DNA of 64,000 nucleotides, taken from positions 1,126,001-1,190,000 of the forward strand of contig NZ_ACJX03000001.1 in assembly GCF_000160455.2 (NCBI RefSeq), written 5' to 3'. The position numbers and the translations under genes were made by a program. This document shows, piece by piece, positions 20,762-48,358 of this stretch (position 1 is the first letter of the stretch; each line of letters opens with the position of its first letter). The notes under the pieces are model-generated. The model worked only from the letters and a program-made list of their open reading frames with translations. It was not told where the DNA came from and ran no database searches. The stretch is from Acetomicrobium hydrogeniformans ATCC BAA-1850 (GTDB lineage Bacteria; Synergistota; Synergistia; Synergistales; Acetomicrobiaceae).

Positions 20762-21538
20762 ATGAATGAAGACCACGATAGTGCGCCAATCGCCAAAGCC
20801 AAGAAAGTGGGAGTGGATCATGTATTAGCTATAGGAAGTGGCAAAGGGGGCGTTGGAAAAAGCTCTGTTACTGCTCTGTTAGCTGTAGCTTTACAGCGAC
20901 AAGGATTTAAGGTAGGTATTCTGGACGCAGACCTCACAGGGCCATCCATTCCAAAACTTTTAGGGGTGGATGGAATGCCTAAGGCTGCTTTTTCCAGCTT
21001 AATTCCACCGGTTTCGCCAAATCTTGGGATCCGCGTAATGTCCATAAATCTTCTCTTAGATGATCCTTACAAACCTGTGATATGGAGAGGACCCCTTGTA
21101 GCAAACGTTATAAAGCAATTTTGGGAAGATGTGATGTGGGGAGAGATTGACTATCTGTTGGTAGACTTGCCACCTGGCACTTCTGATGCTCCCCTCACGA
21201 TCATGCAACTATTGCCTTTAGATGGTTTTTTGGCTGTCACATCACCCCAGTCCCTTTCGGCCATGGTTGTAATTAAGGCAGTGAACATGGCTAACATGTT
21301 GTCCATACCAGTTTTAGGTGCAGTGGAAAATATGAGTTATGCCATATGTCCTTACTGTCATCAGGCGTGGGAGCCCTTCGGTTCTAGCCACTCGGAAGAG
21401 TTGGAAGAACATAACATCCCTATTTTGGCTAGACTGCCCATAGATCCGTCAATTGCCAAACTTGGAGATAAAGGCAAGCTTGAAACCTACGATAACGCGG
21501 AGGTGATGCAGAGTCTTCTAGCTATCGCAACATATTAG
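20762..21538 (+). CDS. mrp: Mrp/NBP35 family iron-sulfur carrier ATPase
   Basis: About 258 aa. Deviant Walker A GSGKGGVGKSS, switch I-like DADLTGPSIPKLLG, and DLPPGTSDAPLT are all diagnostic of Mrp/ApbC/Nbp35. The CPYC motif near residue 190 can hold a bridging 4Fe-4S cluster in the dimer. ATG 20762 with AAGGAGG is preferred over TTG 20687. Transcribed from a Fur-box promoter, divergent from the LarC-like operon. Likely transfers iron-sulfur clusters to target proteins, perhaps those encoded next door. Confidence 0.85.
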   Translation: MNEDHDSAPIAKAKKVGVDHVLAIGSGKGGVGKSSVTALLAVALQRQGFKVGILDADLTGPSIPKLLGVDGMPKAAFSSLIPPVSPNLGIRVMSINLLLDDPYKPVIWRGPLVANVIKQFWEDVMWGEIDYLLVDLPPGTSDAPLTIMQLLPLDGFLAVTSPQSLSAMVVIKAVNMANMLSIPVLGAVENMSYAICPYCHQAWEPFGSSHSEELEEHNIPILARLPIDPSIAKLGDKGKLETYDNAEVMQSLLAIATY

Positions 21539-21591: not shown

Positions 21592-21620
21592 TTGACATGT
21601 CTCTGCGATCAAATTAGAAT
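21592..21620 (+). promoter_or_regulatory. Promoter of the ilv-leu operon
   Basis: TTGACA at 21592-21597 and TAGAAT at 21615-21620 with a 17-base spacer, ending 37 bases before the leader-peptide ATG. Confidence 0.75.
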
Positions 21621-21657
21621 GATCAGAAATTTACCGCTAGAAGGAGGGGAAACGCAG

Positions 21658-21744
21658 ATGTTACGCCAGGACGTAGTATGCATGGAATTGGTCCTAGTGC
21701 TAGTTCTAATAATTATAAGCTGCGGGTCCCCTCCCGGAGCATAG
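21658..21744 (+). CDS. Branched-chain amino acid operon leader peptide
   Basis: 28 codons from ATG to TAG, with a GAAGGAGGGG ribosome binding site. The middle reads ELVLVLVLIIIS: 13 of 28 residues are Leu, Val or Ile and ten of them are consecutive. This is the arrangement of an attenuation leader that senses charging of tRNA-Leu, tRNA-Val and tRNA-Ile. The peptide itself needs no function. It sits between the promoter and the attenuator of the ilv-leu operon. Confidence 0.85.
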   Translation: MLRQDVVCMELVLVLVLIIISCGSPPGA

Positions 21745-21812
21745 GGCTCTTATTACCCTTAGCTTCCAAGGTCGGGACCCGTAAGCGTTACAGGGGTCCC
21801 GACCTTTTTATT
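21722..21812 (+). promoter_or_regulatory. Attenuator: antiterminator and terminator hairpins
   Basis: AAGGTCGGGACCC (21768-21780) pairs with GGGTCCCGACCTT (21794-21806), followed by TTTTTATTTT: a strong terminator. CGGGTCCC at 21723-21730, directly after the Leu/Val/Ile codons, is complementary to GGGACCCG at 21774-21781, the left arm of the terminator. A ribosome stalled at the hungry codons would leave it free to form the antiterminator. Confidence 0.8.
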
Positions 21813-21835: not shown

Positions 21836-22363
21836 GTGAAATATGTTATAGGAGTATTAGCTGAGGACAACCCCGGAGTGCTTTCTCGCATAGCAGCCCT
21901 AATAGCACGAAGAGGATACAACGTGGAGAGCTTAAGCGTGGGTCATAGCCATATCGAGGGATTTTCCCGATTTACCATGGTTGTAGAAGGCGATGAAAGG
22001 GTTGTCGACCAGATTGTGAAGCAGCTGGATAAATTAATAGAGATAGTGGAGGTGAGAAATTTGAGTCAGGCTCCCTATGTGGAACGTTGGATCATGTTGA
22101 TCAAGGTTTCGGCTCCATTGGAGATCAGGCCTCATGTCCTTCAAACGGCCGAAGCCTTTCGAGGAAAAGCTGTAGATGTGGGCGGAGATGCCTTGGTCTT
22201 CGAGGTCACCGGAGACAAGGGCAAGGTTGAAGCCTTCTTGTCTGCCATGAGGCCTTTCGGGATTTTGGAAGTAGCTTCAAGCGGAGCCGTGGCAATGCAG
22301 CGCGTAGGATTTGAAGGTAAAGTTTCAGGCCGATGCGAAGAGTATGAATTGAAACTAGCATAA
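21836..22363 (+). CDS. ilvN: Acetolactate synthase small (regulatory) subunit
   Basis: About 175 aa. N-terminal ACT domain (KYVIGVLAEDNPGVLSRIAA, RRGYNVESLSVG) and second ACT-like half. It binds valine and regulates the catalytic IlvB subunit in the first step of valine and isoleucine synthesis. GTG 21836, eight bases after AGGAGGTG, is preferred over ATG 21818. First gene of the operon; the catalytic subunit is the last gene, 3.8 kb away. Confidence 0.9.
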   Translation: MKYVIGVLAEDNPGVLSRIAALIARRGYNVESLSVGHSHIEGFSRFTMVVEGDERVVDQIVKQLDKLIEIVEVRNLSQAPYVERWIMLIKVSAPLEIRPHVLQTAEAFRGKAVDVGGDALVFEVTGDKGKVEAFLSAMRPFGILEVASSGAVAMQRVGFEGKVSGRCEEYELKLA

Positions 22364-22398: not shown

Positions 22399-23409
22399 AT
22401 GGCAAGGGTTTATTATGACGGAGATGCTGACATAAAAGTTTTGGCTAATAAAAAGGTCGCAGTATTGGGTTACGGAAGCCAAGGCCATGCCCATGCGCAG
22501 AACTTGCGGGACAGTGGTCTGAGCGTAGTGGTTGGTCTTCACAAAGGGAGTTCTTCTATAGAAAGGGCACGCCAGGATGGCTTGGAGGTGCGGGATGTAA
22601 AAGAGGCGGTGGCCATGAGTGACCTGGTCGTCTTTCTCGTTCCCGATCACATCCAGGCTAAAATCTACAAAGAACAAGTGGCTCCTAACCTAAAAGATGG
22701 AGCAGCGCTGGTTTTCGCCCACGGTTTTACCATTCATTTTCATCAGATCATACCCCCTTCCACCGTAGACGTCTTCATGGTCGCTCCCAAAAGCCCTGGG
22801 CATCTGCTGCGTAGAACCTATCAGGAAGGAAAGGGCGTTCCTGCGCTATTTGCAGTTCATCAGAATGCGTCGGGTTCGGCCAGAGAGATGGCTTTAGCTT
22901 ATGCCTGTGCTTTAGGTTGCGGACGAGCAGGTTTGATTGAGACAACTTTTGCCGAGGAGACGGAAACGGATCTATTCGGAGAACAGGCTGTCCTCTGCGG
23001 TGGAGTGACGGAGTTGGTCAAAGCAGGTTTCGATACCCTGGTCGAGGCAGGATATCAGCCGGAAATTGCTTATTTCGAATGTTTGAACGAGCTTAAGCTG
23101 ATAGTGGACATGATGTATGAGGGAGGGCTGTCTTGGATGCGCTATTCGGTGAGCGATACGGCCAAATATGGGGACATGGTAGCAGGTAAGAAAGTTATTG
23201 ATTCGAAAGTCAGAGAGACGATGAAGGAGCTTTTGAAAAACATTCAAGAGGGCAGCTTTGCTAAAGACTGGATACTTGAAAATCAATGCAACAGGCCTCA
23301 AATGAGAGCTTGGCAGCAGAGGGAGAAAAATCACCTTATAGAAAGGGTCGGCTTTGAACTTAGAAAGATGATGCCCTGGCTCGATGCCAAAAAAGCTCCG
23401 GAAAATTAA
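22399..23409 (+). CDS. ilvC: Ketol-acid reductoisomerase
   Basis: 336 aa, class I length. Rossmann motif [13 protein letters not shown] near residue 26, MVAPKSPGH near 130, and the metal- and substrate-binding [22 protein letters not shown] region near 190, then the EGLSWM-like [17 protein letters not shown]. Converts acetolactate to dihydroxyisovalerate using NAD(P)H and Mg2+. ATG with AAGGAGGAA. Between ilvN and leuA in the operon. Confidence 0.95.
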
Positions 23410-23424
23410 AAAAGGAGATGTCGA

Positions 23425-24987
23425 ATGATGAGTGACGATCGTGTGAGAGTATTCGATACGACGCTTAGAGATGGAGAGCAGTCGCCGGGAATAAATTTAA
23501 ATTCGCAGGAAAAGCTCCACATTGCCTATCAATTGGCTGCCTTAGGCGTGGATATCATAGAAGCCGGTTTTCCTGCCGCTTCACCGGGAGACGCAGAGGC
23601 CGTCCGACTTATAGCTGAAAAGGTTAAAGGTCCCATAATAGCAGGATTGTCTAGGACAAGAAGAGAAGACATAAGGGCTGCCTTTGAGTCGGTAAAATGT
23701 GGAGAGCGTCCGCGCATTCACGTGTTCATAGCCACAAGCGATATCCATATGCAATATAAGCTCAAGATGACGAGGGAAGAAGTGTTGGAAGAAATTCGTT
23801 CCGCTGTAAGTTATGCCAAAAGCCTCGTTGCCGACGTGGAATTTTCCGCAGAGGATGGCAGCAGGTCCGACCCCGAATTTCTGATTGAAGCCTTCAAGGT
23901 CGCAGCAGATTGCGGGGCAACCACTTTAAACTTGCCCGATACCGTGGGATACGCCATACCCGAAGAATTTGGAGATTTCTTTTCTAGGGTGATGAAGGGC
24001 GTAGGTAGAGAAGATGTAATATGGTCGGTTCACTGTCATGATGACTTGGGCTTGGCCGTGGCAAATTCCCTGGTGGCAGTTAAGGCGGGAGCAAGACAGG
24101 TAGAGTGCACAATAAACGGAATAGGCGAACGCGCCGGCAACGCTTCACTGGAAGAAATTGTCATGGCCCTGCGTACCAGAAAAGAGTACTTTGGAACCGA
24201 GACAGACATAAACACTACTCACCTTTATCCTACTAGCAGGCTTGTGTCGCGATTGACGGGTTTCGCCATACCTCCCAATAAAGCAGTTGTAGGAGATAAC
24301 GCCTTTTCTCATGAGGCCGGAATACATCAGCACGGTGTCTTGTGCGATAAGAGGACATACGAGATCATGAGACCTCAGGACGTAGGAGCTCCCGACACTA
24401 AATTGGTGTTGGGAAAGCATTCCGGGAGACACGCCTTTTCGGAGAGGATAAAAGGCCTCGGATATCATTTAAACGAAGAAGAGATGGCAAAGGCCTTCGT
24501 GTTATTCAAGGATTTATGCGATAAAAAGGGCATCGTCAGCGACGGCGATATTGAAGCTTTGGTCGTGGACGAAATTCTTGGAGGCGCAACGAAGAGGACC
24601 TTTGAGTTGAGGGATTTCATGGTCAATGTGGGAGCGGGCGGCAGGGGATCTGCTACCGTGGTGATTTCCGACGGCGAAAGGACTGTGAGCGATGCCGCCA
24701 CAGGCAACGGCCCTGTTGATGCAGCTTACAAGGCGATAAAAAGGATAATAAACATCGAACCTGAGTTGGTCAGCTACAAGATTTCCGCAGTTAGCGAGCG
24801 CTCCGATGCAGTGGGAGAAGCGGTGGTAGTTGTGAAATTGAAGGGCGTGTTGGCCCAAGGAAGAGGAGCGAGCACCGACGTCATAGAGGCGAGCATAAAG
24901 GCCTATTTAAACGCCGTAAATCGACTGGTCCAAATTGCGGAGGCCAGAGGGATTAACATCCTTCCACAGTATGTGAGCACGGTGTAA
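23425..24987 (+). CDS. leuA: 2-isopropylmalate synthase
   Basis: 520 aa. Catalytic domain begins [35 protein letters not shown] and the HxH-type GIHQHGVL metal site are present. The C-terminal LeuA allosteric domain (about residues 390-520) binds leucine. Condenses acetyl-CoA with 2-oxoisovalerate, the first step to leucine. ATG ATG start with AAAGGAG. 15 bases after ilvC. Confidence 0.93.
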
Positions 24988-25011
24988 TGTCGAGGAGAGG
25001 GAGTGGGGAAG

Positions 25012-26151
25012 ATGACTCATGATGCTAAAATGACGTATCGTATTGGGCTTTTGCCGGGAGATGGCATAGGGAAAGACGTGATTACTGAGGCGCGAAAGGT
25101 CGTTGAAACTGCTGCAAGTTCGTTTGGTTTTTCCGTGGAGTGGAGGGAATTTCCCTACGGGGCCGAACACTACTTGAATACAGGAGAGATCTTGCCGGAC
25201 GAAGCGCTGGAAGAGATGCAGCAGTGCTGCGCGCTGCTACAGGGAGCCATAGGAGATCCCAGGGTTCCTCCGGGTGTCCTTGAGCGGGGAATATTGCTGA
25301 AGACGAGGTTTTATTTCGATCAATACGTTAATTTGAGGCCTGCCTTGACCTATCCCAATGTTCCTACGCCTTTGAAAAGGGGAGAGGGCATAGATATAGT
25401 TGTAGTCAGAGAAAACACCGAAGACCTTTACGTAGGTTTGGGCTTTCTTTCTAATGAAGAGATCGAGGCAACGGTGGATATGAAGAGACCTTCATATACG
25501 TTAAAGGGAGCTCTTTCCCTAAAAGTTGATCCTTCCATGAAATTTGCTGCACAGTTGGCTTTGGCTACGGAAATGGGCGTTAGGCGCATTACGCGCTATG
25601 CCTGCAACTTGGCCCGTCGCAGAAAGGCAAGCGAAATAGTGCTAGCGACGAAATCAAACGCCGTGAAAGAGCTGTACGGCCTTTGGGAAGAAATAGCGAA
25701 AGAGGAGACCTCAAAAGAGGGGATATCACTAAAACTGGTCAATGTAGATGCCCTCTGTTATCAGCTTGCAAGAGATCCCTCGGGATATGGCGTGATCTTA
25801 TGTCCAAATTTGTTTGGCGACATCGTAAGCGATCTTCTGGCGGGACTTACGGGCGGGTTGGGTTTGTCGCCCAGCGCAAACATAGGAGATGGCCTATCGA
25901 TGTTCGAGCCGGTTCATGGTTCTGCGCCCGATATAGCCGGTACAGGAAGGGCAAATCCCTTAGCTGCCATATTGTCGGCAAGTTTAATGCTTGAACATCT
26001 TACACAAGTTGAGGCGTCCGAAGCCGTAAAAAATGCTGTTTTGGAATATTTAAGGGCCTTTCCGCGGCAAAGACATCCTATGGAGCTTGGTGGCGAGGCG
26101 ACAACTTCAGAGGTCGGAGACAGTGTTGCCTCAATTATCCAAAGGATGTGA
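25012..26151 (+). CDS. leuB: Isopropylmalate/homoisocitrate-type dehydrogenase
   Basis: About 379 aa, beta-decarboxylating dehydrogenase family. GLLPGDGIGKDVITEA at the start, VVVRENTEDLYVG near residue 125, NLFGDIVSDLLAGLTGGLGL and EPVHGSAPDIAGTGRANP later. The operon argues for 3-isopropylmalate dehydrogenase. The RENTEDLYVG active-site segment is more like isocitrate and homoisocitrate dehydrogenases than typical LeuB, and leuC and leuD are not in the operon. ATG 25012, with GAGGAGAGGGAG upstream, is preferred over GTG 25003. Confidence 0.8.
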   Translation: MTHDAKMTYRIGLLPGDGIGKDVITEARKVVETAASSFGFSVEWREFPYGAEHYLNTGEILPDEALEEMQQCCALLQGAIGDPRVPPGVLERGILLKTRFYFDQYVNLRPALTYPNVPTPLKRGEGIDIVVVRENTEDLYVGLGFLSNEEIEATVDMKRPSYTLKGALSLKVDPSMKFAAQLALATEMGVRRITRYACNLARRRKASEIVLATKSNAVKELYGLWEEIAKEETSKEGISLKLVNVDALCYQLARDPSGYGVILCPNLFGDIVSDLLAGLTGGLGLSPSANIGDGLSMFEPVHGSAPDIAGTGRANPLAAILSASLMLEHLTQVEASEAVKNAVLEYLRAFPRQRHPMELGGEATTSEVGDSVASIIQRM

Positions 26152-26156
26152 GTAAA

Positions 26157-27821
26157 ATGCGCTTGACAGGGGCACAGATGATAATTAAGGCCTTGGAAGA
26201 AGAGGCCGTGGAGACGGTGTTCGGATACCCTGGAGGGACAGTAATTCCGCTTTATGATGCCCTTTACGATTCAAAGATAAGACACGTATTGATGCGCCAT
26301 GAACAAGCGGTAGGGCATGCGGCCGACGGATATGCGAGGGTAAGGGGAAAACCGGGCGTCTGTTTCGTTACGTCGGGACCTGGTGCTACTAATATAGTGA
26401 CTCCTTTGGCTTCGGCCTATATGGATTCCATTCCGGTGGTAGTGATCGCCGGCCAGGTAGCTACGAAGGTGATGGGAACTGATGCATTTCAGGAGGCCGA
26501 TATCTTTGGCTGTTCCATGTCAATGGTGAAGCACAGCTTTTTGGTAAAAAGCGCTTCTGAAATTCCAAAGGCGGTGCGTGGGGCCTTTTACATCGCCACA
26601 ACAGGAAGGCCGGGTCCCGTTTTGATAGTTTTGCCCGTGGATGTTCAAAACGAGGAAGGAGAGTTTGTCTATCCTCCCAAGTTAGAATTTCCGGGATATC
26701 ATCCCGAAAGGAACGAGGATCTTACGATGTGGGGCGATGTGGTTGAGGCCATCAATAAAGCCGAACGGCCCTTGTTGCTTCTTGGGGGAGGGGTTATACA
26801 CTCCCGAGCAAGCGCAGCATTTAGCAGCTTTATCGACGAATTCAGGATGCCTGTGGCTACCACTCTCATGGGCAAAGGCGCCTATCCAGAAGGAAATTTT
26901 TTGTCCTTGGGCATGGCCGGAATGCACGGGCGCCCTGCGGCCAATAGGGCGATCCTGGAAGCCGATCTGGTCATTGGGGTAGGAACACGTTTTTCCGACA
27001 GGACGACGGGTAGAGCGACCCGCTTTGCTCCAAATGCAAAGATCATACATATCGATGTCGATCCTGCGGAAATCAACAAGAACATAAGAGCGTCCCACTT
27101 TCTGATAGGCGATGCAGGAAAGATTATATCGGGTTTGCATGGGGAAATTAAAGCTCGCGACCGTTCCACCTGGCTCCAAGGCATAGAGAAATTTAAACAG
27201 GAGGAAGTATGCGACGATGACAACTCTTACATAACTCCTCGCGCCCTTTTGATGTCTCTTAGAAAAATGGTCGAGCCTCAACAAATAGTCTCGACTGAAG
27301 TGGGACAAAACCAGATGTGGGCTGCCCTTCACTGGCAAGTAAAGTTTCCCGGAACCTTTTTGTCTTCCGGAGGTCTCGGGACTATGGGATACGGCCTTCC
27401 TGCTGCAATTGGGCCGGCCTTTGCTCTTTTAGACCGACCCGTCCTTTGTATTTCCGGTGACGGAAGTTTTTTGATGAACGTACAGGAGCTCGAGACTTGC
27501 GTCAGATATAATTTGCCCGTCAAGCTGATTGTCATAAACAATTCCAGCCTTGGCATGGTAAGGCAGTGGCAAGAGCTGTTTTGGAGCGAAAGGTATTCGG
27601 CCACCAATGAAGCGCCGTCGCGCTCGCTGGTGGAAATAGCAAGCGGGTTTGGAGTGAAGGGTTATCGAATTGAACGTTCTCATGAGATTAGCTCTACACT
27701 TCAAATGGCATTAAGTCAAGATGGGCCTACATTGGTGGAATGCATCGTTCCTACGAAGGAAAAGGTCTTCCCGATGGTTCCTCCGGGCGGCGGGATGGAC
27801 GAAATGATCCTTGAAGCTTGA
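26157..27821 (+). CDS. ilvB: Acetolactate synthase large (catalytic) subunit
   Basis: About 554 aa, three-domain ThDP enzyme. FGYPGGTVIPLYDAL and HEQAVGHAADGYAR with the catalytic Glu region at the start, then GDGSFLMNVQELETCVRYNLPVK (GDG...NN ThDP motif, NN at INNSSLG). Makes acetolactate or acetohydroxybutyrate from pyruvate. GTG 26148 overlapping the leuB stop is an alternative start. Last gene of the operon; a terminator follows. Confidence 0.93.
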   Translation: MRLTGAQMIIKALEEEAVETVFGYPGGTVIPLYDALYDSKIRHVLMRHEQAVGHAADGYARVRGKPGVCFVTSGPGATNIVTPLASAYMDSIPVVVIAGQVATKVMGTDAFQEADIFGCSMSMVKHSFLVKSASEIPKAVRGAFYIATTGRPGPVLIVLPVDVQNEEGEFVYPPKLEFPGYHPERNEDLTMWGDVVEAINKAERPLLLLGGGVIHSRASAAFSSFIDEFRMPVATTLMGKGAYPEGNFLSLGMAGMHGRPAANRAILEADLVIGVGTRFSDRTTGRATRFAPNAKIIHIDVDPAEINKNIRASHFLIGDAGKIISGLHGEIKARDRSTWLQGIEKFKQEEVCDDDNSYITPRALLMSLRKMVEPQQIVSTEVGQNQMWAALHWQVKFPGTFLSSGGLGTMGYGLPAAIGPAFALLDRPVLCISGDGSFLMNVQELETCVRYNLPVKLIVINNSSLGMVRQWQELFWSERYSATNEAPSRSLVEIASGFGVKGYRIERSHEISSTLQMALSQDGPTLVECIVPTKEKVFPMVPPGGGMDEMILEA

Positions 27822-31399: not shown

Positions 31400-31499
31400 T
31401 CTAATCGGAAATATGTTGTTTGCCTGTGCGAGCAACGAAAACCGGGCCCCTGTTGATTTTTATAGGGGCAAGAGGTAAGATAGCAGGCGAAAAAAGAAC

Positions 31500-31650
31500 A
31501 ACACGATCGTTTCGGTGACGGGAAACCGGTGAAAATCCGGTGCGGCCCCGCCGCTGTAACCCTGACGAAATCGCATATTGCCACTGCCTTTTGGTGGGAA
31601 GGCGCGACAGTAGGATGAAGGGAAGCCAGAAGACCGGCCGAAGACGATGA
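31500..31650 (+). ncRNA. Cobalamin riboswitch
   Basis: The leader of the TonB-dependent receptor gene contains GGTGACGGGAAACCGGTGAA, then the B12-box-like GCCCCGCCGCTGTAACCC and, 3', GAAGCCAGAAGACCGGCCG. These are the conserved elements of the adenosylcobalamin aptamer in the right order. A terminator hairpin follows at 31687. Turns off receptor expression when cobalamin is plentiful. The exact ends are approximate. Confidence 0.9.
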
Positions 31651-31686
31651 GATGCTTGCATCATGCGGCGGCGTGATCTGGCAGGG

Positions 31687-31730: not shown

Positions 31731-31764
31731 TATATAACTAATATGTTGATTGGAGGGTAGGTCT

Positions 31765-33693
31765 ATGAAGTTGTCATTGAGTTTTTCAAAGATCATCGTG
31801 TTTTTAAGCTTTCTATATCTGTCGTCTTTTTTAGGCGGGGAGGTTTTGGCTCAGGAAGGTCCCGTAACGGTTGCCCCGGAGCTTGTCACGGGAAGCAGGC
31901 TGGCAGAGTCGCTAGATGAGGTTCCGCAGGCAACATATGTGATCACAGCAGAGGAGATCGAAAGAAGCAGAGCTAAGACTTTAAGCGAGGTATTGGATAA
32001 GATCCCAGGCATATCCACTTTAAGGAAAAATTCGTGGGCACAAGATGATTCGTTGAGGATGAGGGGCGTTGCAACGGAAATATTAATACTGGTCGATGGT
32101 GTTCCATATTACAACGCGAGCTATGGAGCAGATATGTTCAATGTTGACTTAAGGTCCATCCCCTTGGAATCGGTCGAACGGGTCGAAGTTATAAAAGGTG
32201 CCGGATCTGCACTTTACGGTTCAATGGCTGCAGCGGGTGTAATTAACATCATCACCAAGACGCCCGATAAGTACAAGACGTCAATCATAGCCGAAGGCGG
32301 CAGCAACGACTGGCGCAGGTATTCCGTCTCGGCAGGGATTAAAGGAGACGTCTTTGATGTCGGGATTCGCTACAATCATAGAGAAGAAGGCGAAGTGCCT
32401 ATCAGGTATTATGATGATGAAGTTTATAAAGCGCTTGACTATGACGAAGATTCGGCGAGCATTGCACTTTCTTGGGGGAACTGGCGCTTTGGAGCCGATT
32501 TCGGTTCCTATAATTCAAAGTGGGATGCAGGTAACCCTATGATAGATAAACAAGAGGACGATTATAAGAGATTTTATCTGAAATATGCAGACCTTAAAAA
32601 TGAAGTAATAGCCTATGCCCATTTCATTAATAAGGAGTATGTCCAAGGAGGACAAGGAGGAGATGATGACTTACCTGATTTCACTAGGCCGTTGCCTAAC
32701 GACTATGACCAAGACATTTGGGGTTTGGAGTTTACTCAAAAATCTTCGATTGGAGAGGTGCCGCTTGCCTGGGGAGTTGCTTATCGCTTTGAAAAACTTT
32801 CCGCGAATGGTGATGGTTTGATAGTTGATAGTGACAAAAAAACTTATTCAATAGACAAATTTTCTTACAAAGGGGAACGATATAACATTGCTCCCTTTAC
32901 GCAGTTTTCCTTTGTGTTGGGTGACGTGCTCATGGACATAGGTTTAAGATATGAAAATTGGGATGTTGATGATGGAAAAGACGAGTCTGAATTTACCCCG
33001 AAAATATCTTTTTATAGACAGGATGACAGCGGAAAGCTGTGGTATTTAACGGCGGGCAAGTTTTTTGCCATGCCAAGCTTGTATCAGTTGTATGCAAAAG
33101 ATGCTATGCTTGAGCCAAATCCTAACCTGCTTCCGGAAAAAGGATATACTTATGATTTAGGCGTAAAGGATCCAAATAATAGATGGAACGTAGGTTTGTT
33201 TTACATGACATTGGATAACAAATTTAAGTGGGACCAAATTGGTAGTAAGGGAAGATATATTAATTTGGCCGAATTTCGCTCCTTGGGTATTGAGGGACAG
33301 TTTGAAAAAGCGCTTACTTCTAATCTAAAGTGGATTAACGGAATGACCTGGCAAAAGCCGGAAGAAAAACAAACTTCAAGTGACCCTTGGAGGAAGGGTG
33401 GCACTCCTCAATGGGAGCTTTATAGCGAGCTTAATTACGACAACGGCCCCTGGTTTGGCAGCTTGAGCGCCCACTATTATGGTCAACGTGAGATAGATAA
33501 TTTACAATCTTATCATAACAATAGGGCAGATGATGACTTCATTACTGTCGATGCTATTTTGGCATACGATATGGAAGACTATAAAATAACTCTGGCTGCT
33601 TACAATATATTCGATGAAGAGTACATAATTGACACTTCAGGGTACATCGGCCCAGAAAGAAGGGTATATCTGACCTTAGAACATTTGTTTTAG
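31765..33693 (+). CDS. TonB-dependent outer-membrane receptor, probably for corrinoids (BtuB-like)
   Basis: About 642 aa. A signal peptide ends near EVLAQE. The plug domain follows (YVITAEEIERSRAKTLSEVL; LILVDGVPYYN; VERVEVIKGAGSALYGSMAAAGVINIITK), then a 22-strand-type barrel ending in ERRVYLTLEHLF with a terminal Phe for outer-membrane assembly. The cobalamin riboswitch upstream indicates corrinoid uptake. Energy would come from the exbB-exbD-tonB genes at 42-45 kb. ATG 31765 with GGAGGG. Confidence 0.9.
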   Translation: MKLSLSFSKIIVFLSFLYLSSFLGGEVLAQEGPVTVAPELVTGSRLAESLDEVPQATYVITAEEIERSRAKTLSEVLDKIPGISTLRKNSWAQDDSLRMRGVATEILILVDGVPYYNASYGADMFNVDLRSIPLESVERVEVIKGAGSALYGSMAAAGVINIITKTPDKYKTSIIAEGGSNDWRRYSVSAGIKGDVFDVGIRYNHREEGEVPIRYYDDEVYKALDYDEDSASIALSWGNWRFGADFGSYNSKWDAGNPMIDKQEDDYKRFYLKYADLKNEVIAYAHFINKEYVQGGQGGDDDLPDFTRPLPNDYDQDIWGLEFTQKSSIGEVPLAWGVAYRFEKLSANGDGLIVDSDKKTYSIDKFSYKGERYNIAPFTQFSFVLGDVLMDIGLRYENWDVDDGKDESEFTPKISFYRQDDSGKLWYLTAGKFFAMPSLYQLYAKDAMLEPNPNLLPEKGYTYDLGVKDPNNRWNVGLFYMTLDNKFKWDQIGSKGRYINLAEFRSLGIEGQFEKALTSNLKWINGMTWQKPEEKQTSSDPWRKGGTPQWELYSELNYDNGPWFGSLSAHYYGQREIDNLQSYHNNRADDDFITVDAILAYDMEDYKITLAAYNIFDEEYIIDTSGYIGPERRVYLTLEHLF

Positions 33694-48145: not shown

Positions 48146-48191
48146 GCAGGGAAAGGCTGCACTTTAAATTGATATTGCAAAATTTCCTTAC

Positions 48192-48282
48192 CTTCCCTCC
48201 GCCGGCATGACCCGGATCAGGTTCTAAGGGTCGAAGCTGTCAAAAGCTTCCTCTCAGTCGGTTACCCGACTCCCCCGGGACT
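48192..48282 (-). ncRNA. TPP (thiamine pyrophosphate) riboswitch
   Basis: The minus strand reads GGGGGAGTCGGGTAACCGAC, then CTGAGAGGAAGC, a variable P3 arm, ACCCTTAGAACCTGATCCGG and GTCATGCCGGCGGAGGGAAG: the conserved THI-box elements in order. It lies directly before the thiZXYW genes and would shut them off when TPP is present. The TonB-system genes follow without an evident terminator. Confidence 0.93.
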
Positions 48283-48358
48283 TGTATTTTCATTCTATCA
48301 CAAACTTTGCATTTGAGAAGGGCCATGCATCTTAAGGCACTTAACGAGGGGCTATCGA

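Follow-up and report, generated by a model that had tools for sequence, protein, structure and literature searches.

The genes ilvN-ilvC-leuA-leuB-ilvB in the window (the whole 64,000-nucleotide stretch of Acetomicrobium hydrogeniformans DNA analysed here, to whose numbering all unprefixed coordinates refer) are very probably controlled by a ribosome-mediated transcription attenuator. The same high confidence extends to the placement of this element within a phylum-wide family of homologous attenuators, in which the sensor codons have been exchanged to fit the gene downstream. The original prediction had proposed an attenuator of this type in what looked like a distant phylum; the phylum is Synergistota, and comparison across its genomes gives the attenuator reading strong support.

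All of the predicted components, namely a promoter, a 28-codon leader containing an uninterrupted run of ten Leu/Val/Ile codons, an antiterminator and a terminator, are present in the window sequence (Table 1). The leader peptide ORF, MLRQDVVCMELVLVLVLIIISCGSPPGA, runs from an ATG at 21658 through 28 codons to a TAG stop at 21742–21744; its codons 11–20 are the Leu/Val/Ile codons, and a strong Shine-Dalgarno (SD) sequence, AAGGAGGGG, lies directly 5′ of its start codon. The promoter is nearly identical in two congeners (L002 and L003), and the nearest named relative by IlvN is Acetomicrobium sp. UBA5826 (98% identical). Downstream, the ORFs of the putative operon, named by sequence appearance in the case of ilvC, leuA, leuB-like and ilvB, are separated from their neighbours by small gaps or overlap them.

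Table 1. Features of the attenuator and its operon in the window.
Feature	Position	Strand	Remark
sigma-70-like promoter, TTGACA-17-TAGAAT	21592–21620	+	consensus match only, 11 of 12 positions
strand 1: leader SD (GGAGGGG) and bases to the start codon	21643–21657	+	partner of strand 2
leader peptide ORF	21658–21744	+	homologous leaders at Synergistota ilvN loci
sensor codons Leu Val Leu Val Leu Val Leu Ile Ile Ile	21688–21717	+	
strand 2: switch strand, encodes CGSPPGA	21720–21741	+	pairs with SD (protector) or strand 3 (antiterminator)
strand 3: terminator left arm, antiterminator partner of strand 2	21768–21784	+	
strand 4: terminator right arm and U tract	21788–21811	+	
ilvN, acetolactate synthase regulatory subunit, first operon gene	21836–22363	+	GTG start; own SD at ~21820
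remaining putative operon	22399–27821	+	ilvC 22399–23409, leuA 23425–24987, leuB-like 25003–26151, ilvB 26148–27821

Three helices can be drawn from the four strands. An intrinsic terminator (21768–21806 plus U tract) has a calculated stability of −26.3 kcal/mol; a generic terminator scan did not list it, probably because an interior bulge in the stem defies a simple stem-loop definition. The antiterminator joins 21721–21730 with 21774–21783 and 21733–21734 with 21770–21771, so that its pairs at 21770–21783 fall within the terminator's left arm, as the original prediction had it. The third helix, the protector, is the strongest upstream helix predicted for the untranslated RNA and brings the segment from SD to start codon together with 21720–21734 of strand 2 (pairs 21643–21650 with 21727–21734, and 21653–21657 with 21720–21724). 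The leader RNA as a whole folds more stably than all of 200 dinucleotide shuffles (z −4.4). Compared at gathering score with 4227 Rfam families, the element matched no leader or riboswitch, and at 21592–21812 there was no match to the T-box (RF00230); on these scans, a T-box or riboswitch identity was rejected. Two riboswitches lie elsewhere in the window: a cobalamin riboswitch (31496–31656, + strand, 108 bits) upstream of a TonB-dependent-receptor-like ORF (31750–33693), and a TPP riboswitch (48176–48286, − strand, 71.6 bits).

We inspected the regions upstream of ilvN at about 60 Synergistota loci in which the gene start lay inside the fetched stretch. Almost without exception, the Synergistota families examined have a homologous leader, switch strand and terminator ahead of ilvN, and the tail of the leader is conserved as SCGSPPGA, SSGSPEVAGA, SRGSRPRPIGA and similar variants. 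Of 45 relatives, 32 have, upstream of ilvN, an ORF that follows an SD and has 8 or more Leu, Ile or Val codons within a stretch of 10; no such ORF occurred in 1800 dinucleotide shuffles of those upstream regions, or upstream of any of the 38 other long ORFs in the window. Conservation of leader codons and hairpins in relatives, proposed as a check on the original prediction, thus holds at almost every Synergistota locus examined, and the pattern named as speaking against it, a terminator kept after loss of the leader codons, was not encountered: codons and terminator are retained jointly upstream of ilvN. One large genus (g3 of family f3; L085 and L087–L099) has no leader before ilvN; there the gene is divergent and sits directly behind another gene, and most genomes of the genus are also devoid of other members of the attenuator family. 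Two loci have unusual arrangements. In genome G017, the leader upstream of ilvN (L078) is unusually long, with 66 codons and two separate Leu/Val/Ile runs, and is perhaps a fused double attenuator. In genome G012, near-identical tandem attenuators, two full and a third partial across an N run, precede an ilvN-like gene (L117:345–825), an arrangement that may reflect genuine stacking or an assembly artefact.

Both the terminator and the antiterminator carry compensatory base changes among Synergistota ilvN leaders. Across 42 aligned sequences, two-sided changes occur at 7 of the 11 terminator pairs, with 94% of cells paired, and at 7 of the 12 antiterminator pairs, with 89% of cells paired. None of 500 shuffles matched the terminator on cells paired and covariation score, and sliding the partner strand produced a sharp drop for either helix. 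One row (L086), for which the automatic terminator call was wrong, was excluded from the model; another locus (L005) has a clear terminator that the second caller missed. RNAalifold, run on the full alignment (A2), recovered the terminator as the sole helix, a result probably due to the failure of MAFFT to align the SD arm.

Since the SD arm aligns poorly, the SD:strand 2 helix was tested by swapping partners between genomes of unrelated clusters. For 41 of the 46 ilvN leaders, the leader's own SD paired more stably with its own strand 2 than the mean of the swapped partners (−33.1 versus −27.1 kcal/mol), and the same held for 70 of the 81 members of the family from other loci (−30.3 versus −24.8 kcal/mol); in 76 of these 81 non-ilvN members, at least half of the SD core was paired. 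Strand 2 therefore appears to have two roles, one as antiterminator strand and one as the anti-SD of the leader to which it belongs. In the trp attenuator of E. coli, strand 1 sits around the regulatory codons instead of the SD.

The family extends well beyond ilvN. A covariance model spanning strand 2 to the terminator and trained on ilvN leaders only (R1) gave matches at E ≤ 0.1 in 86 of 101 related genomes, among them genomes with no detected ilvN; many matches in a single genome were common. The window element itself scores E 2.9e-14, as a member of the training set whose aligned core is common to independent loci. When 68 members, both ilvN and non-ilvN, were used to train a second model (R2), it gave 442 matches at E ≤ 0.001. 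These fall in 131 of 188 Synergistota genomes and 58 of 63 genera, with up to 16 copies per genome at that threshold, and extend to a family outside the main Synergistota order. Member scores range from roughly 30 to 94 bits. Throughout, a strand 2 core of the GGGUCC-CCUCC-GGAG type is strongly conserved, and the non-ilvN copies combine this common core and a strong SD with different codon runs.

Downstream genes of representative members were checked with NCBIfam and Pfam. MMMC-type runs stand before MetN, O-acetylhomoserine sulfhydrylase and, at 11 loci grouped by similarity, MetQ/NlpA lipoproteins; MMMMT, TMT and TTTTTMTT runs before aspartate kinase and homoserine dehydrogenase; LLL-type runs before LeuA and LeuC; and III to IIIIII runs before threonine-dehydratase-like and 2-oxoacid:acceptor oxidoreductase genes. 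A VVVVVDV run precedes PanB, the substrate of which derives from the valine pathway. FFF, YYF or YYY runs precede PaaK, an FFFSFFF run a family-3 solute-binding protein, a YFYFWF-like run SSS symporters, an AAAA run a PLP aminotransferase, and a mixed Ile/Leu/Val run NSS symporters. When the expected residues, which had been chosen from pathway knowledge with the leader sequences already in view, were permuted over 8 gene classes, 2 of 40320 arrangements reached the observed match: the observed one, and that in which leuA and leuC, with an identical expected residue, are swapped. Two leuC leaders are weak (L224 and L235), and for some matches (L119, L121, L146, L154 and L201 among them) the near downstream region shows no clear gene. 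Leu/Ile/Val leaders at four loci (L148, L222, L239 and L242) lie ~290–400 nt 5′ of clustered, mutually similar genes, among them one with a match to an AddB-type exonuclease. Two further Leu/Val leaders (L113 and L151), scoring 90–94 bits, lie ~370–500 nt 5′ of a PAS-HD domain gene, and no amino-acid gene was recognised in between.

The alternative that fares best, though we consider it improbable, is that the window element is a stand-alone attenuator whose likeness to others in Synergistota is convergent, arising from the need of all such elements for an anti-SD-like strand and a GC-rich terminator. Having to pair with the SD as well as with strand 3 would indeed push strand 2 towards CCUCC and GGGUCC, and the window's own genome holds a single copy; candidate extra copies there were rejected, the other matches (best E ~0.2) being terminator-like or non-leader, and one adjoining a T-box. 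Against convergence, R1, despite its training on ilvN leaders, finds non-ilvN members at 44–86 bits with a reading frame that is nearly always identical relative to the core. Attenuators with the same task elsewhere do not score in this way: seven E. coli leader regions (trp, thr, ilv, phe, leu, his and ivb) reach at most 19.2 bits, which argues that function alone does not create the Synergistota core, and 11 high-GC genomes of the Microbacterium type (Actinobacteria) gave terminator pieces but no full-length match. A shared TGCGGG and a CG dipeptide had hinted at homology with E. coli ilvL; this was rejected, as ilvL (18.7 bits) scores like trpL (19.2 bits), thrL (15.9 bits) and a non-leader stretch, the opposite strand of the thr region (18.9 bits). 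Finally, cores group by gene class: for 43 of 55 non-ilvN members, the nearest core neighbour in another genome belonged to the same gene class, against a shuffled mean of 13 and a maximum of 29. This class-wise clustering suggests old paralogous classes, not frequent switching of specificity.

Direct sensing of a metabolite or protein by the RNA, with the leader ORF incidental, would fit the higher conservation in the strand 2 region than in the leader's N-terminal half. Codon runs that track the downstream gene over a constant core are not, however, what a ligand pocket would give, and the SD, start codon and frame are retained while Rfam riboswitch and T-box models find nothing; we therefore regard a riboswitch-like element as very unlikely. 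Equally slim is the prospect that the ...SPPGA tail, through its PPG motif, stalls the ribosome in an EF-P-dependent manner and so regulates the operon. Many leaders do end in SPPG or GGPPG, yet PPG is absent at this position from many conserved members (SSGSPEVAGA, SRGSRPRPIGA, VLPGV, GSSPGMVG), pairing with the SD and strand 3 accounts for the conservation of the tail, and a ribosome stalled there would mask strand 2 and favour termination. That the leader is a functional small-protein gene, with the hairpin serving to terminate the upstream Mrp/ParA-type gene (an ORF ends upstream at 21538), is scarcely credible, given that the N-terminal half of the peptide is unconserved, that paralogues replace the hydrophobic run with other residues, and that terminator and leader co-occur before amino-acid genes in many contexts.

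Under ribosome-mediated attenuation, a ribosome would load on the leader SD before strand 2 is synthesised. With Leu-, Val- or Ile-tRNA scarce, it would stall at codons 11–18, leaving strand 2 free to capture strand 3 as it emerges; the terminator would then fail and the operon would be transcribed. With charged tRNA plentiful, the ribosome would reach the stop codon and mask strand 2, allowing the terminator to form, and after its release strand 2 would pair with the leader SD, blocking new ribosomes and leaving strand 3 for the terminator. In a scan of stall geometry, an A site at any of codons 11–18 (the seven Leu/Val codons and the first Ile) permits all 12 core antiterminator pairs, an A site at codon 19 permits 9 and at codon 20 permits 6, and from codon 23 to the stop none remains save one stray. 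By this geometry, stalling at Leu or Val should yield read-through and running to the stop should yield termination, with a weaker effect of Ile starvation. The Ile response may be poorer, as a stall at codons 19–20, which are very close to strand 2, would leave a weaker antiterminator. As soon as strand 4 has been made, the terminator is predicted to outcompete the antiterminator thermodynamically, so the switch would have to be kinetic, as in classical attenuators. A stalled ribosome also leaves the SD arm uncovered, and displacement of strand 1 would thus require help from kinetics, from steric hindrance or from a second ribosome bound at the SD; we infer that strand 1 is kept away by the bulk of the stalled ribosome or by such a second ribosome.

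Ribosome-mediated attenuation is itself an already known mechanism. Like ilvL, thrL, leuL, trpL, hisL and pheL of E. coli, the Synergistota elements combine a leader of cognate codons with protector, antiterminator and terminator helices before a biosynthetic operon; unlike them, they use one homologous core for many amino acids. Leader attenuators before ilvB have been described in Actinobacteria (Seliverstov et al. 2005, PMC1262725), with a three-hairpin model for ilvBNC of C. glutamicum (PMC11857589). These share with the present element an ILV-rich leader and a terminator before acetolactate synthase genes, as well as terminator, antiterminator and anti-antiterminator hairpins, although the leader stands before ilvB in Actinobacteria and before ilvN in Synergistota. 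Leader-peptide attenuation outside Proteobacteria is also seen in Firmicutes, at his in Bacillus and others (PMC9413887, PMC2965389) and in a Leu-rich ilv leader of S. aureus (PMC5794164); the relevant portions of these reports concern single pathways, and a codon-swapped paralogous family across one phylum is not among the cases described there.

The closest parallel in design is the T-box, in which a codon-like specifier is likewise changed on one scaffold so that different charged tRNAs are sensed before many amino-acid genes. The T-box binds tRNA directly, whereas the Synergistota element would use a translating ribosome as its sensor. T-boxes are typically present in Synergistota at ~3 per genome alongside leader attenuators (for example, G000:C1:1376409–1376637, 188749–188985 and 1814030–1814278), and these matches indicate that the phylum uses the two systems for sensing charged tRNA in parallel. 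Among the family loci, the best sub-threshold Rfam match was to RF02883 (BcKCsr2, 'Burkholderia sRNA 2') in L134 (L134:1988–2101), at 33.3 of the 40 bits required. The RF02883 consensus starts AUG AAU GCC AGU UCG CCC CAU UUU UUU UCG UAG, a short ORF ending in HFFS-stop, and continues with a terminator; RF02883 may therefore be a Phe leader attenuator, not a trans-acting sRNA. The Burkholderia RNA is also listed as nc5U15 in a review (PMC10987360).

In the open-access PMC literature, we found no report of leader-peptide attenuators in Synergistota (the subscription literature may differ), nor any description of one homologous core re-coded for several amino acids. Rfam holds no model of the element, and the leaders fall below the size for routine gene calling. 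Attenuators of the leader-peptide type are usually taken to have arisen separately for each operon; in Synergistota, one homologous core is used again and again. We put forward, with about as much doubt as conviction, that much amino-acid regulation in Synergistota runs through one ancestral, single-shot attenuator core that is re-programmed by its codon run alone. Such a core would be a ribosome-read counterpart of the T-box, its kernel strand acting as both anti-SD and antiterminator, so that each transcript would effectively be read once before the leader closes on itself. With interchangeable sensor codons and at least six specificities, the evolution of attenuator specificity becomes directly testable, and the core is a possible modular RNA part. 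In these little-studied anaerobes, the leader codons may also offer a rule for predicting the substrates of transporters and enzymes, such as a Met- or aromatic-specific transporter.
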